Source: Lachnospiraceae bacterium A4 (GTDB lineage Bacteria; Bacillota; Clostridia; Lachnospirales; Lachnospiraceae). From it: a DNA stretch of 64,000 nt. Location: NCBI GenBank assembly GCA_000403215.2, contig KE159532.1:15846-79845 (forward strand), read 5' to 3'. Shown in pieces: positions 1 to 34,783 of the stretch (position 1 is the stretch's first letter; the number at the start of each line of letters is the position of its first letter). A model generated the notes under the pieces. The model searched no databases and was not told the origin of the DNA. It saw only the letters and a list, made by a program, of their open reading frames with translations. Both the position numbers and the translations under genes were made by a program.

Positions 1-110
1 CATCTGCGTCATCAGAAAATCTTGACATAGCCCGCTATGCCTGCGATTTTCTTCTTTGCAACTGAACATTTATACGGCGTACTTGTCACAAGTAATTTCA
101 TCACAGTTCC
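1..110. repeat. Palindromic MITE-like element, copy A (partial, right part)
   Basis: These 110 bases match positions 9468-9577 of the complete copy nearly base for base, including the central ATAGCCCGCTAT hairpin and the terminal CAGTTCC. The element ends at 110 and is followed by TTA (111-113), which fits the TNA target duplication of the complete copies. The left arm lies outside the window. It abuts the 5'-truncated coding remnant that follows. No transposase is encoded, so any movement must have been in trans (inference). Confidence 0.85.
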
Positions 111-112
111 TT

Positions 113-574
113 AGATTTGATGATTGCGGGAATTTATTATTTAGATTTGTGACAAGCGATATACGGGATGCGGAAATATTTGTGGATGAAACAGTTAATA
201 AATACTATATACAAACCAGACTGCATATTGCCGCTAATCATGATGTAACACTATATCAAGAAATTTCCTATAATAAAAACTGGAATATGGAAATAATGTT
301 TGCAGAATGGGACTGTAGACCTGGACAAGAACGAATTGAAGATAAAAAAGAAGGATATTCTATTTATGAAAGTTTTACACAAGTTGAAAAAGAAGATATT
401 TTAAAAACTGGATATGAAAATATGTTAAATATTTTTCAGATGAAGGAAGCAAATGGCACTGTCGGACAGCTAGAAAAATATGTTCAAGGTTATGATAAAC
501 AAGCAAAAGAAAAGGTGGTGTTGATTGGAGAAATTTATCCCAAGACTGAGGATATAAATTGGATATCAGAATAG
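113..574 (+). pseudogene. 5'-truncated hypothetical gene, remnant
   Basis: An open frame of about 153 residues emerges directly from the repeat element. Its apparent first 19 residues would be encoded by the repeat, so the true start is lost or lies beyond the window. The product is acidic, soluble-looking and lysine/glutamate rich, with no signal peptide or membrane segment and no motif I recognise. It stops 31 bases before the start region of the PAAR-like gene, so it was probably the upstream member of the same operon. Function unknown; the truncation is seen, the cause (element insertion) is inferred. Confidence 0.55.
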
Positions 575-6419: not shown

Positions 6420-7323
6420 TCTGGTATGCAGATTTATGTTGAAGAGAAATTTATATCAGTTATATATGAAAAAAGAAAATGGAAGGGTTCAGCTGGCAGA
6501 AATAAAAAAATGGAGAGCAATCTATTATACACGTCCTGTACGATATGAGGTAATAATTGAATATATGACAGGTAGTGGAAAAAAGACCGTGACAATTGCA
6601 ACAAGCAGTTCCTTCCTCAAAAAATATAAGGATGAGAAAAGTATACAGATCGTAACAGTATCTGGTACAAATTTTGTTTTTCTTGCAGAGGAGAAATGGA
6701 CAGTACAGAATATAGAATTATGGGTAGTGATATTCGTTCTCTCTATCTTTATAGCAATATTCTTGCTGATGGGATTTTTACAGGCATGGTCAATGGGAAT
6801 GCTGCAGGGTGTCATATTTTTATCTTTTTTGTCCATTTATCTGAAACTGCGGCATATAGTACGTCCGCGGATGCGCTGTAAACACAAAGCGAGAATGAAG
6901 TATGTTACAGACCTTTCATGTGAAGAGGTAATGGAAAAGCTCAGGCAGGAAGCGCATAATGATTTTCAATTTGCAAAGGAGAATGAGGATGAAAAAGACA
7001 ATATGTATATATTTTCTATTGATTGGAAAGCTCCATTTTATCAGAAATATTTGTGTGCAGGAGCCAGGTACCGTGTAATGGTGACGCCGTCACAGACAGG
7101 CAGTACAGTTTGGTTTTATTTATCTGAGTGCAGTGATGATTATGCACTGGATCACTTTGCAGAAAAACTGAGAGGATTTATGATAAAGTGCAGGTGTCGA
7201 TCATGGGTGATGAGAACGCACATCAGACCATCAATATCTGGTATCCTTATGCCATGGTGTATTCTACACCGGATGGTACAGGCTGGTACTGTATGCCAGA
7301 ACCAGGTGACATGGTGCGTCTGA
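6373..7323 (+). CDS. Membrane protein with C-terminus replaced by out-of-frame spike-gene sequence
   Basis: 316 residues from ATG 6373 behind GGAAGGAGTGAAT. Hydrophobic segments near residues 4-20, 116-137 and 140-158 mark an integral membrane protein with cytosolic and outer loops. Up to about residue 268 (DHFAEKL) the sequence looks native. From about 7176 on, the same DNA encodes the VgrG-like OB domain in another frame, so the last ~45 residues (Arg/Cys/Trp/Met rich) are an artefact of a deletion junction. It is therefore probably a truncated gene. Possible immunity protein by position; function not recognised. Confidence 0.5.
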   Translation: MPIELYIMAAVCLLIDLVCRFMLKRNLYQLYMKKENGRVQLAEIKKWRAIYYTRPVRYEVIIEYMTGSGKKTVTIATSSSFLKKYKDEKSIQIVTVSGTNFVFLAEEKWTVQNIELWVVIFVLSIFIAIFLLMGFLQAWSMGMLQGVIFLSFLSIYLKLRHIVRPRMRCKHKARMKYVTDLSCEEVMEKLRQEAHNDFQFAKENEDEKDNMYIFSIDWKAPFYQKYLCAGARYRVMVTPSQTGSTVWFYLSECSDDYALDHFAEKLRGFMIKCRCRSWVMRTHIRPSISGILMPWCILHRMVQAGTVCQNQVTWCV

Positions 7324-7857
7324 CGATACCGCAGCATCAGGAAAGAGATGCATTTGTGGTAAGGAACTGTAGAAAATAACTGACGCATCTTGACTTGGAT
7401 ATTTCTCCGAGGATGCATGCCCAAAAGCCTCGCCGTAGCCCGCTACGCCTACATTTTTTGTCATGCATCCTCGAAGAAATATCCTACGCAATCTGCATCA
7501 CTTATTTTCCTACAATTCCTAAGTTCCGTGCATGTGGAAACAGACAACCCAGATCGAAAAGATCCTTTACACAAAGTATTTAAGAGCAGGTATCAGAAGG
7601 AAGTGCGTTTTACGCCTGATTCCATCGTGATCACCAACAACAAGGGAACAAGAATCGAGCTGACAGATGCGGAGGGAATCCACATCGTAAGTGCGCATTC
7701 TATTATGCTGGAAACAGCAGAGGATCTGACGATTGCCAGTGATGCCGTATCGCTGATCGTCGCGGGAGATTCCTTTGTAAATTTCAGGCAGATAGGGACA
7801 AGCTTACAGCTTGATAACGGAATCTCATTTATCGGCGGGAATCTGAAGATACAGTAA
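7176..7857 (+). pseudogene. VgrG / gp5-like spike protein, 5'-truncated and split by a repeat element
   Basis: Two pieces of one protein are seen. 7176-7360 encodes IYDKVQVSIMGDEN... GWYCMPEPGDMVRLTIP, the OB-fold of VgrG/phage gp5-type spikes. 7522-7857 encodes HVETDNPDRKDPLHKV ... RFTPDSIVITNNKGTRIELT and a row of short strands ending in GNLKIQ, the beginning of the triple-stranded beta-helix. A 157-bp palindromic element sits between. Removing it and one TAA duplicate restores GCA TTT GTG GTA AGT TCC GTG (AFVVSSV), a continuous frame. The N-terminal gp27-like part is missing and replaced by the membrane gene upstream. VgrG proteins form the tip of contractile injection machines; here the gene cannot make a full product. 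Confidence 0.75.
7363..7519. repeat. Palindromic MITE-like element, copy B (complete)
   Basis: 157 bp, starting GGAACTGTAGAAAATAAC and ending in its imperfect inverse, flanked on both sides by TAA (7360-7362 and 7520-7522). Inside, a ~23-bp stem (GATATTTCTCCGAGGATGC with its inverse GCATCCTCGAAGAAATATC) surrounds a small central hairpin GTAGC-CC-GCTAC. The whole element can fold into one long hairpin. No coding capacity. It interrupts the VgrG-like gene and gives the left fragment the tail RNCRK-stop. Confidence 0.9.
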
Positions 7858-7907
7858 TAAAACGAATAATCACGACAGGGGGGATATGCAATGGCATACA
7901 GGAAGCA

Positions 7908-8306
7908 ATGATAGCAGATGCCAGGAAATGGGGCAAAGCAGTATTTTCCGGCAGTATCAGGATGCTGGAAGCCGAATACCAGAAAACAGCCAGAAGGGAT
8001 GCAGTCCTGCAGGCAGGCGGGATACGGCTGGCATTATTCGGCAGGGAATTTTACCTGGATGAGAACCAGCTGGAAAAGACTTGGCAGCCGCCCTGTTTTT
8101 TCCAGCAGTATGAGCAGGATATATCAGCAGTAATGGACAGACTCAGGAAGGAGTATCCCTGAATATATCCATATGAGGAAGATGCTGTCCGTTTCTGGTA
8201 TGCCGAATATTATTATGCGGCGCTGGAAACCCTGTGCAGGGATATGATGGGGGAGATAAGGGAGAGCAGGGAATACCGCATGCTCAATAAAACAGAGGAT
8301 TTTTGA
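7908..8306 (+). pseudogene. Broken helical protein gene with in-frame TGA
   Basis: The frame reads MIADARKWGKAVFSGSIR ... RLALFGREFYLDENQLE ... RLRKEYP, stops at TGA 8160-8162, then continues in the same frame as IYPYEEDAVRFWYAEYYYA ... MLNKTEDF to a second stop at 8304. A CGA-to-TGA type change would explain it, giving an original protein of about 132 residues. A possible earlier start (ATG 7891, MAYRKQ) is out of frame and ends after six codons, suggesting a further frameshift. It directly follows the VgrG-like gene and may be a small structural or adaptor partner (inference). Confidence 0.55.
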
Positions 8307-8348
8307 CATTTATGGAGAAAGGAAAGAAGAGAATTGTGGTTTACTGCG

Positions 8349-9257
8349 TTATATTTTAATACCTGCATCAGTAAGCATTTTTTTTAGTTTTGCTATTTCA
8401 GCATCCTTATCAGCGAGCCTGGCATCCTTATCAGCGAGCCTAGCATCCTTATCAGCGAGCTTGGCATCCTTATCAGCCAGACGTATTTTAAATTCCATAA
8501 TTTCAGGTGCCAGCATCTCCTTTAATTCTTCACACATTTGATCACCCTCCTGTATCATTCTCTTAAATAGTTCTATATTTGCTTCTGACGTGACATTTAC
8601 AACGGAATCCGCATTTCGTCTGTCTTCGTCATCCTCAAGTTCTGAGCAGCTGTTAAGAAGTCTCTGTGTCCGTATCCTGTCTATGGTCCGTGTCAGGGAT
8701 GTAACCCATACATGGGTCTTTGGATCAAGCTCCCCTGTTGCAAGAATCTGTATGGGGAATAACAGGCCGCTGATCCGATAGATGCCATCGGATTTTTTGA
8801 TAACCTCATATTTTTCCGCCAGCTGTTCTAACAGTATCACAGGTTTCTGTTCCCTGACAAGTGAAACTGTGATATCCATGTTAAGGATTTCACTGACATT
8901 TCCTGCCTCAGACTTATACAGACATGCATAGGACAGTGCTTTGTAAAATGTACCAATGTTCATGTCATCTCCCGGTGATTTATATTCAAAGATATTATTC
9001 CCGAGGAAGAAATCACCAATGTCATTTTTGATCGTGACGCTGGGGTTTTTCCTGATGACAAGGAAATCAATCTTTAACGGCATTTTGCCCAGATTGTGTT
9101 CACGTTCATATCTTAAGTATTTTTTATATTCCCGCAGTTCCAGCTCCATGGCAGAACAGAATGCTGGATGCCACTGTATTTTATCTTCAATCTCCAATAT
9201 AATAATCGTGTTATTGTTCACTCTGCTTTGCAAATAGATTTTATCCGCTGCTGGCAC
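8349..9257 (-). CDS. PD-(D/E)XK-like protein (family often mislabelled 3-isopropylmalate dehydrogenase)
   Basis: 302 residues if GTG 9257 is used. The fold features KIDFLVIRK (Asp) and NNIFEYKSPGD (Glu-x-Lys) fit a PD-(D/E)XK core; this Lachnospiraceae-type family carries a wrong dehydrogenase label in many databases. The C-terminus has four seven-residue LADKDA(R/K/E) units and ends in a coiled coil. The start is uncertain: GTG 9257 has no ribosome binding site, while an ATG at 9298 with GAAGGGAAA leads a 26-codon overlapping frame, so a frameshift or leader peptide is possible. Function unknown; nuclease activity is inference from the fold. Confidence 0.65.
   Translation of the reverse strand: MPAADKIYLQSRVNNNTIIILEIEDKIQWHPAFCSAMELELREYKKYLRYEREHNLGKMPLKIDFLVIRKNPSVTIKNDIGDFFLGNNIFEYKSPGDDMNIGTFYKALSYACLYKSEAGNVSEILNMDITVSLVREQKPVILLEQLAEKYEVIKKSDGIYRISGLLFPIQILATGELDPKTHVWVTSLTRTIDRIRTQRLLNSCSELEDDEDRRNADSVVNVTSEANIELFKRMIQEGDQMCEELKEMLAPEIMEFKIRLADKDAKLADKDARLADKDARLADKDAEIAKLKKMLTDAGIKI
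8401..8482 (-). repeat. 21-bp tandem repeat encoding LADKDA(R) units
   Basis: Four near-identical 21-base units (plus strand GCATCCTTATCAGCGAGCCT with one more base) encode the heptad LADKDAR/K/E. The period of seven residues suits a coiled coil, and unit number may vary by slippage. Confidence 0.9.
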
Positions 9258-9298
9258 TTTTTCATATGGCTTAGAAAGTCATACATGGACAGTAACAT
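9218..9298 (-). CDS. Possible leader ORF overlapping the start of the PD-(D/E)XK-like gene
   Basis: ATG 9298 follows GAAGGGAAA, the only good ribosome binding site below the promoter at 9320-9348. It encodes 26 residues (MLLSMYDFLSHMKKCQQR...) and stops 39 bases inside the longer gene, in another frame. It may be a true leader peptide for coupled translation, or the displaced original N-terminus after a one-base change. Confidence 0.3.
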   Translation of the reverse strand: MLLSMYDFLSHMKKCQQRIKSICKAE

Positions 9299-9319
9299 TT
9301 TCCCTTCATTTATTGTTTC

Positions 9320-9348
9320 AGTATATCATACCAGACAGTAGTGTGCAA
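9320..9348 (-). promoter_or_regulatory. Promoter for the minus-strand PD-(D/E)XK-like gene
   Basis: On the minus strand TTGCAC (9348-9343), 17-base spacer, TATACT (9325-9320). Transcription would start near 9313, just before the GAAGGGAAA-ATG at 9298. Confidence 0.6.
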
Positions 9349-9422
9349 TAAGATTGTGTGATATCAGAAAAGCCTGAAAAATTCCTGATACTGTTCACAC
9401 AGGACTTAGCATTTACTACTAA

Positions 9423-9577
9423 GGAACTGTTCAGAAATTACTCATGATAATTACTTGTCTAAATGTCCATCTGCGTCATCAGAAAATCTTGACATAGCCC
9501 GCTATGCCTGCGATTTTCTTCTTTGCAGCTGAACATTTATACGGCGTACTTGTCACAAGTAATTTCTGAACAGTTCC
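9423..9577. repeat. Palindromic MITE-like element, copy C (complete)
   Basis: 155 bp with perfect 20-bp terminal inverted repeats (GGAACTGTTCAGAAATTACT), flanked by TAA at 9420-9422 and 9578-9580. The centre holds ATAGC-CC-GCTAT, which differs from copy B (GTAGC-CC-GCTAC) by a paired change that keeps the stem. Its right flank continues into a copy of the nuclease gene at a TAA that also exists in the intact gene (5091-5093 region), but the left flank does not match that gene. Confidence 0.92.
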
Positions 9578-9905
9578 TAAGCAGTATGCAGCTTACAGCC
9601 AGAATGGAAGGACTGGACGCAGAGTGCAAGTTACTGCTCAGCAACCGGGAAATACTGGCTGTGATTCTAAAGGAAACGATTGACGAATACAAGGAATACA
9701 GCAGAGAAGAGATTATAGGCTTCATCGAGCCGGATTCCATTCGGACAGGGAGGTATCACCGGGGCGGACAAACTCACAGATACAGGGAGATACGCAGGAA
9801 TTTGCGGCCCTGAATGAGAAAGTGTCCCGGTTCGATATCCGTCTGAGGGCAAAAAATCCAAGACTGTCAAAGGAAAGCATCGTCATTAAACTCCACATAG
9901 ACATT
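9578..9905 (+). pseudogene. Truncated, frameshifted copy of the PD-(D/E)XK transposase-like gene
   Basis: From TAAGCAGTATGCAGC on, the sequence is nearly identical to about 5091-5413 of the intact gene. It lacks the first ~12 codons, has a 4-base deletion (GAGT after GATTCCATT) that shifts the frame, and stops matching after CTCCACATAGACATTGA near 9908, just before another repeat arm. It is bounded by element copies on both sides. High identity implies a recent duplication or recombination. Confidence 0.85.
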
Positions 9906-9922
9906 GAAGAAATAACAGGTTA

Positions 9923-9946
9923 GGAACTGTAGAAAAATAACTGACG
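9923..9946 (+). repeat. Single arm of the palindromic element (copy D, truncated)
   Basis: GGAACTGTAGAAAAATAACTGACG preceded by TTA (9920-9922) matches the left arm of copy B. No inner stem or right arm follows; instead GGGGGTGTCAGTTTAAGTG begins, which may be the end of another mobile element. It marks a rearrangement junction. Confidence 0.7.
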
Positions 9947-34762: not shown

Positions 34763-34765
34763 TAA

Positions 34766-34783
34766 GGAACTGTAGAAAAATAA
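34766..34783 (+). repeat. Single arm of the palindromic element (copy E, truncated)
   Basis: GGAACTGTAGAAAAATAA preceded by TAA (34763-34765) matches the arms at 7363 and 9923. No inner stem or second arm follows; the next gene's ribosome binding site (GGGAGGAAG) begins within ten bases. Confidence 0.65.

Follow-up and report, generated by a model that had tools for sequence, protein, structure and literature searches.

How does a short palindromic element that lacks a transposase move through a bacterial genome, and why does it keep an elaborate fold at its centre? The question is raised by a 64,000-nt stretch of DNA from Lachnospiraceae bacterium A4 (C6:15846-79845, contig KE159532.1, in a genome of 6.96 Mb and 40 contigs), below called the window, which contains complete and partial copies of two such elements, types A and B. 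The explanation we favour, with a probability of roughly 0.6, is that they are non-autonomous elements mobilised in trans by ISAzo13 transposases, and that they carry a strand-specific module selected as a structured RNA. The elements bear a signature of mobility, are matched by an insertion sequence (IS) in their ends and target duplication, and carry a module that covaries, folds preferentially on one strand and is distributed over distant phyla; judging from the predicted structures, this fold would act as RNA. Technically, ISAzo13-family transposases would recognise GGAACTGT-N4-AAATAACT-like ends in trans and duplicate TWA. The module would fold, on one strand only, into a long rod. This would be capped by the conserved apical hairpin GGCRUAG-CGGG-CUAYGYC and would contain tandem G.A and UG/GU pairs as well as an internal loop rich in purines (CGYA / RAGR). 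In Lachnospiraceae, Bacteroidales and Desulfobacterota this module is also joined to ends that belong to other transposases. The selected form would be the transcript rather than folded single-stranded DNA, and the benefit would fall to the element (survival, spread or host tolerance), probably because the conserved loops are recognised by an RNA-binding factor of the host.

The complete type A copy occupies positions 7363-7519 (157 bp) and is flanked by TAA at 7360-7362 and 7520-7522 (span 7360..7522). Its stably folding strand is the minus strand, where the hairpin module lies at 7402..7481 (covariance-model match, 78.4 bits) around a core found by core search at 7436..7453, which reads TAGCCCGCTACGCCTACA on the plus strand. 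The complete type B copy at 9423-9577 (155 bp, TAA at 9420-9422 and 9578-9580, span 9420..9580) likewise folds on the minus strand, with the module at 9461..9540 (covariance-model match, 60.2 bits) and the core at 9495..9512, reading TAGCCCGCTATGCCTGCG on the plus strand. The right part of a further type B copy, also minus, is found at 1-110 with TTA at 111-113 (span 1..113) and the module at 1-73; it borders a run of N, which forms the contig sequence directly before the window and may be an assembly gap, so that this truncation may not be biological. Two solo type A ends lie on the plus strand, one at 9920..9946 (24 bp shared, end at 9923, TTA ahead) and one at 34763..34783 (18 bp shared, end at 34766, TAA ahead), and no module follows either of them. 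All these copies and ends stand exactly where a preliminary description of the window had placed them.

That description had proposed a multicopy family resembling miniature inverted-repeat transposable elements (MITEs), and searches of the genome confirmed it, the covariance model giving 53 matches at 51 distinct module places. Full-length type B (155 bp) was found at 22 places and full-length type A (157 bp) at 20, one of the latter with an internal deletion, partial copies being extra for both; type A measures 157-158 bp and has a 171-bp subtype. The end TNAGGAACTGT occurs 171 times genome-wide against 32 for the reversed control, and the core TAGCCCGCTAYGCCTRCG, allowing up to two mismatches, 49 times against one in the control. 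Both ends could be recognised in 42 copies; the 3-bp flanks of 36 are identical (27 TAA, 8 TTA and 1 TTG) and those of six unequal (L003, L016, L031, L038, L044 and L048), while one further copy abuts N. The proposed TNA duplication is thus a 3-bp TWA duplication, 35 of the 42 evaluable copies having TAA or TTA. Types A and B are short, have inverted ends, lack a transposase, duplicate their target and are present in many copies, and they are a real multicopy MITE family. A further module-bearing type with the ends GGAACTGTTAAGG and GGAACTGTCC is represented by two identical 156-bp copies, L054 (C12) and L055 (C10), and a model match at C12:241157-241236, identified by score alone, has the same score as this type.

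The partner IS was sought by pairing end matches among the first 100 of the 171 TNAGGAACTGT matches. A 1334-bp IS in the same genome (L071 and L072; also L051 and L052) has the ends GGAACTGTTAATAAATAACT with TTA or TAA flanks and encodes a 414-aa transposase of the ISAzo13 family (NF033519, 528 bits with a cut-off of 200; PF07592, 376 bits with a cut-off of 26.9). A protein search gave 17 matches in the genome, belonging to several lineages and some of them partial. End pairs were found in 11 of the 17 loci with a script that demanded equal flanks; ten are flanked by TAA or TTA, and in L073, which lies close to the end of a contig, the script paired the ends out of register, with AGG as flanks. 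Two type B copies, L011 and L021, start with TTAATAA as does the ISAzo13 IS, and L021 equals the IS end over 18 bases. The expectation that the MITEs and an autonomous IS would have their ends in common was therefore borne out in the same genome, and from these ends and flanks we infer that the elements are mobilised in trans by ISAzo13. Positions 9-12 of the ends in the type B copies L001-L022 read mostly TCAG, GATG or TAAT, and one copy can combine different variants at its two ends; they look as if exchanged, and might match different ISAzo13 lineages.

The preliminary description had instead suggested an IS5-like transposase of the IS1031 group, which would accord with a TNA duplication of 3 bp. 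Among the end pairs read, drawn from 100 of the 171 end matches, there was no IS5/IS1031 element sharing these ends; no dedicated IS5 search was run. It is the ISAzo13 copies of the genome that carry these ends and the TWA flanks, and an IS1182-family copy in L053, whose transposase also matched IS5 models below their cut-offs, has ends that differ by eye. The IS5 assignment is therefore not supported, and we give an IS5/IS1031-type mobiliser almost no credence. The IS1182-family element was itself considered as a partner and rejected on the strength of this one case: at L053:913-2691 (C8) it lies inside an element of a third MITE type, into whose central hairpin it seems to have inserted, since AGGCGTACTGGGGTACGCCG of the hairpin is found on either side of it. 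One of the ISAzo13 copies, L051 (C3:26229-27568), interrupts an open frame that by eye resembles an IS200/IS605-type transposase.

Despite their differing arms, types A and B have the asymmetric core TAGCCCGCTAYGCCTRCG in common, and it forms the centre of a module of about 80 nt that also lies within elements having other ends. The small central hairpins described earlier are only partly right: the stems GTAGC/GCTAC and ATAGC/GCTAT are present, but the 2-nt loop would be too tight and the predicted fold has a 4-nt loop, CCCG. The covariation claimed for this centre is real and strong, and extends further than claimed. For its quantification 128 module stretches were reduced to 78 by removing near-duplicates and the loci L140, L149 and L136 (chance or cut). 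From these, 54 were chosen by hand for a first alignment; a set of 70 elements was obtained by leaving out eight that are cut or coding (L127, L160, L163, L145, L201, L138, L046 and L179), and a second alignment holds seven fewer, that is 63. A third, model-fitted alignment contains opposite-strand self-matches and is not used as main evidence. In the 54 elements RNAalifold predicted 23 pairs, 17 of them with compensated double changes. Across the 63 elements from all groups, read on the folded strand with 32 pairs, 84.6% of the cells are paired against 69.6% when shuffled and 39-45% when the partner was slid instead; double-change cells number 285 against 100 shuffled, and the covariation score is 0.425 against 0.184. 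Each of paired fraction, double-change cells and covariation score was reached by none of 500 shuffles, controls that are not probabilities, since the structure was derived from the same sequences and the elements are related.

Covariation of this kind could also arise as a by-product, if template switching or conversion made one arm of a functionless quasi-palindrome a copy of the other. The elements are indeed near-palindromes, with full-length opposite-strand self-matches of 72-75% in type B and 63-77% in type A, and the mixing of the TCAG, GATG and TAAT variants between the ends of a copy fits such exchange. Copying should erase mismatches evenly, yet the mismatches are conserved on one side. 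The folded strand, defined as the opposite of the one reading CCCGCTA and thus minus for the copies in the window, turns them into stabilising pairs, TC/TC becoming GA/GA and CA/CA becoming UG/GU. GA/GA accounts for 73 of 157 two-by-two loops on this strand, in 58 of 104 elements, and for none on the other, and UG/GU stacks are found in 44 of the 104 elements on the folded strand against one on the other, in a census that includes 34 hand-picked held-out matches. The folded strand is the more stable one in 70 of 70 elements (59 Lachnospiraceae-like, 5 from Desulfobacterota, 5 from Bacteroidales and 1 from Geobacter), group labels for L198-L231 resting on sequence likeness (L204 and L228 Desulfobacterota, the others Lachnospiraceae-like), and the mean energy difference between the strands is 16 kcal/mol in the Lachnospiraceae-like group. 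It is also the more stable one in 43 of 44 held-out model matches (the exception being L281) and in all 7 training-like ones, after 13 of 64 matches had been dropped as near-identical. This one-sidedness makes us regard a functionless by-product as very improbable.

The same asymmetry bears on whether RNA or DNA folds. G.U cells outnumber A.C cells by 247 to 70 on the folded strand, and G.U exceeds A.C in 53 of 63 rows and is the rarer in six. Such G.U use is, like UG/GU stacks and tandem G.A, a usual trait of RNA, and these features support RNA as the form that is selected. Alternatively, the selected form might be a folded single-stranded DNA that is exposed during replication or DNA transfer, pairs the element's own ends and aids transposition or survival. 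DNA energy parameters give the same strand sign (59/59, 5/5, 5/5 and 1/1 in the four groups), so that folded DNA is possible, and a class of 60-bp derivatives described below has the length expected from deletion between GACAAGTA repeats, which hints at a hairpin formed by the DNA itself. Tandem wobbles of the type 5'-UG/3'-GU are a preferred RNA motif, and their presence in 44 elements on one strand against one on the other speaks against DNA as the folding molecule; moreover, to our knowledge elements of this kind need no single-stranded intermediate. On balance we find the DNA alternative unlikely.

Several observations weigh against a structured RNA carried by ISAzo13-mobilised elements, the agreement of the DNA parameters being one of them. 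A scan of 7300-9650 found no internal promoter on the folded strand; it gave 12 promoter-like sites against 5.8 expected, and the sole site within an element (7458-7485, type A) is on the plus strand. With heuristic gene calls, both neighbouring genes run antisense to the folded strand at 17 of 45 own-genome copies and both sense at 7, and the corresponding counts for 53 copies elsewhere are 20 and 12 (p 0.22). Since flanking genes are somewhat more often antisense, read-through from the host would more often carry the less stable strand. The strand test on held-out matches is partly circular in that the model chose the strand, and because the elements are related, neither the 70 nor the 44 are independent events. 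In a divergent type from Bacteroidota the asymmetry is lost or turned round (L281; L285 reversed over the full length). Pairs with any double change, a weak measure, number 24 against 20.0 shuffled, and 3 of 500 shuffles were as high; the invariance of the 18 core bases partly reflects how the elements were picked, the exact core having been used in the contig-wide scan. With respect to the mobiliser, the TCAG, GATG and type A end versions were seen on none of the ISAzo13 copies read in the genome.

As another possible function, the module might terminate transcription in both directions or act as an insulator, so that insertions are tolerated. The region 7300-9650 has 4 terminator-like sites against 1.5 expected, and they include one in the type A copy (7434-7447, plus) and one in the type B copy (9508-9491, minus). 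A T-run after the folded-strand hairpin is absent in L126, L137, L212, L152 and L154, however, and in elements that have it the predicted rod pairs it with an A-run, which leaves the terminator quite improbable in our view.

The distribution of the module shows the elements from another side. A contig-wide scan with the core gave at least 114 stretches; the 80 titled matches listed are mostly from Lachnospiraceae, and among the matches listed there are also several per genome in Bacteroidales and Desulfobacterales. The covariance model at E <= 1e-4 matched 26 of the 200 family genomes searched. In the class it matched 7 of 391, five of them from other families, in Desulfobacterota 8 of 198 and in Bacteroidota 2 of 296; the centre genome is included in each of these counts. 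Scored matches reach 14-23 in single genomes; these copy numbers are lower bounds, since searches of more than 40 genomes scored 11-23 candidates per genome under stricter filters. Such a patchy distribution is expected for a mobile element. A plasmid search with type B gave no match, a phage search with type A gave two partial matches, and four search patterns found 2, 2, 0 and 0 places in viral contigs.

It is clear from these matches that the module stands behind different ends. Module-bearing near-palindromes among the matches listed have the ends TWA-GGAACTGT, CTAG-TACATCG, CTAG-TATAACG, CTAG-TGTACTGAC and others, those of Desulfobacterales TA-GTGYCCATCCGGAAATAG ends (again among the matches listed), and the model matches add CTAG-AGCGTGTYTGAAAAA and CTAG-TGCATCCCGGCG. 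In Desulfobacterota the TWA flanks beside GG- or GA-ends are equal in four of six cases (L290, L291, L298 and L299; not L294 and L296). The Bacteroidales ends CCCAAATCGGTCATTAG have equal 5-bp flanks at four of seven places (L280, L284, L287 and L134, the register of the last set by eye), and the elements L286, L288 and L138 with these ends have four of five flank bases equal; no partner was found for the CCCAAATCGGTCATTAG ends. For the CTAG group, a copy of an IS630-family element (L277, genome G183) has the end GTGTACTGACATG within CTA..TAG, akin to the CTAG-TGTACTGAC ends, and the GTGTACTGAC subgroup agrees with the IS630 element in insertion site and ends, across different genomes. An IS630 match at E <= 1e-10 was lacking in five of eight genomes searched, and no partner transposase was found for the TACATCG, TATAACG and AGCGTGT ends. 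CTAGTAYANCG end pairs in seven genomes are mostly 80-180 bp apart, and two larger pairs, both in G006, are not IS: in one, two short elements flank a 465-aa frame that, judged by eye, does not encode a transposase, and in the other the ends are dissimilar. G006 (the genome of L174) holds 75 CTAGTAYANCG ends (40 forward and 35 reverse), many of them paired 90-180 bp apart, and some elements abut with one CTAG common to two.

The ends that border the module thus belong to two identified transposase families and to a third kind, implied by the 5-bp duplication; this argues against a module serving one enzyme. The suggestion in the preliminary description that the mobilising enzyme makes use of the structure is unproven, and such service would have to extend to several transposase types. 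Tentatively, and with somewhat more doubt than belief, we consider an as yet undescribed mobile class of structured RNA, in which a single folded module, found in three or more phyla, spreads by taking the ends of any DDE transposase at hand, here ISAzo13, IS630 and a 5-bp-duplication kind in Bacteroidales. The logic would be comparable to that of short interspersed nuclear elements (SINEs), except that the proposed class is DNA-transposed.

Short type B derivatives in the A4 genome (L056-L063, L066-L068 and L070), mostly 60 or 47 bp and in one case 32 bp long, retain both ends and lack the module, and 7 of 12 read have equal 3-bp flanks. In type B the hairpin lies between two direct repeats GACAAGTA, placed on the folded strand at positions 24 and 119, and the 60-bp form can be read as an in-situ deletion because these repeats predict that length. 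The end variants of the short copies mirror those of the full copies. Such copies were at one point taken as proof that the module is dispensable, an argument that we dropped on account of the repeat deletion and the mirrored ends; the 60-bp and 47-bp copies show that shortened forms persist, yet they look like direct-repeat deletions and are no proof of module-free transposition.

Compared with known systems, the elements agree with the ISAzo13 IS (NF033519, PF07592) of the same genome in GGAACTGT..AAATAACT-like ends and TWA 3-bp flanks, and differ in being about 155-171 bp long, without a transposase and with an interior unlike the IS. The end GTGTACTGACATG in CTA..TAG of the IS630-family copy L277 (G183) resembles that of the MITEs L137, L166 and L212 of other genomes; these carry the module and no transposase, and the match is cross-genome. 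Type II bacterial MITEs, according to the part of PMC10969869 available, are below 500 bp, have terminal and direct repeats and predicted stem-loop transcripts, and resemble an IS at their ends only; the present elements match these traits, and a conserved one-strand module across phyla and ends is a trait that this part of the source does not mention. The same source names a Chunjie MITE of Geobacter uraniireducens, known to us from it by name alone. A module with two GA/GA loops is present in L175, a Geobacter metagenome-assembled genome locus. Repetitive extragenic palindromes (REPs) are, in the part of PMC3733652 available, GTAG-tagged palindromes of 20-40 bp. Here GYAG stands ahead of the apical hairpin on the folded strand, while a length of 155-171 bp, terminal repeats and duplications set the elements apart from REPs and REPINs. 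In 17 sources compared with Rfam, none of the families attained its gathering score at a module: nine gave only a tRNA-Sec elsewhere in L228, and the other eight gave 9 matches, all under the gathering score. Neither core nor module was found in the open-access literature searched. The kind of element, a MITE, is already known, and the strand-specific module common to several transposase types is what was not found in the open-access literature or Rfam. A hammerhead-like CUGAUGA is confined to type B and was dropped as a candidate motif.

Bacterial MITEs are usually viewed as shrunken, content-free relics. Here the ends are exchanged but distant phyla retain the same fold, loops and strand, which suggests that something reads the fold. 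This gives a testable handle on the persistence of small non-autonomous elements. It also provides a family of structured nucleic acids for which a covariance model is at hand and which has many copies in gut anaerobes.

Between the two complete copies in the window lies a minus-strand open frame (8349-9257) with no match in Pfam or PHROGs, and within it short tandem repeats (ATCCTTATCAGCGAGCC...) are found at 8396-8480.

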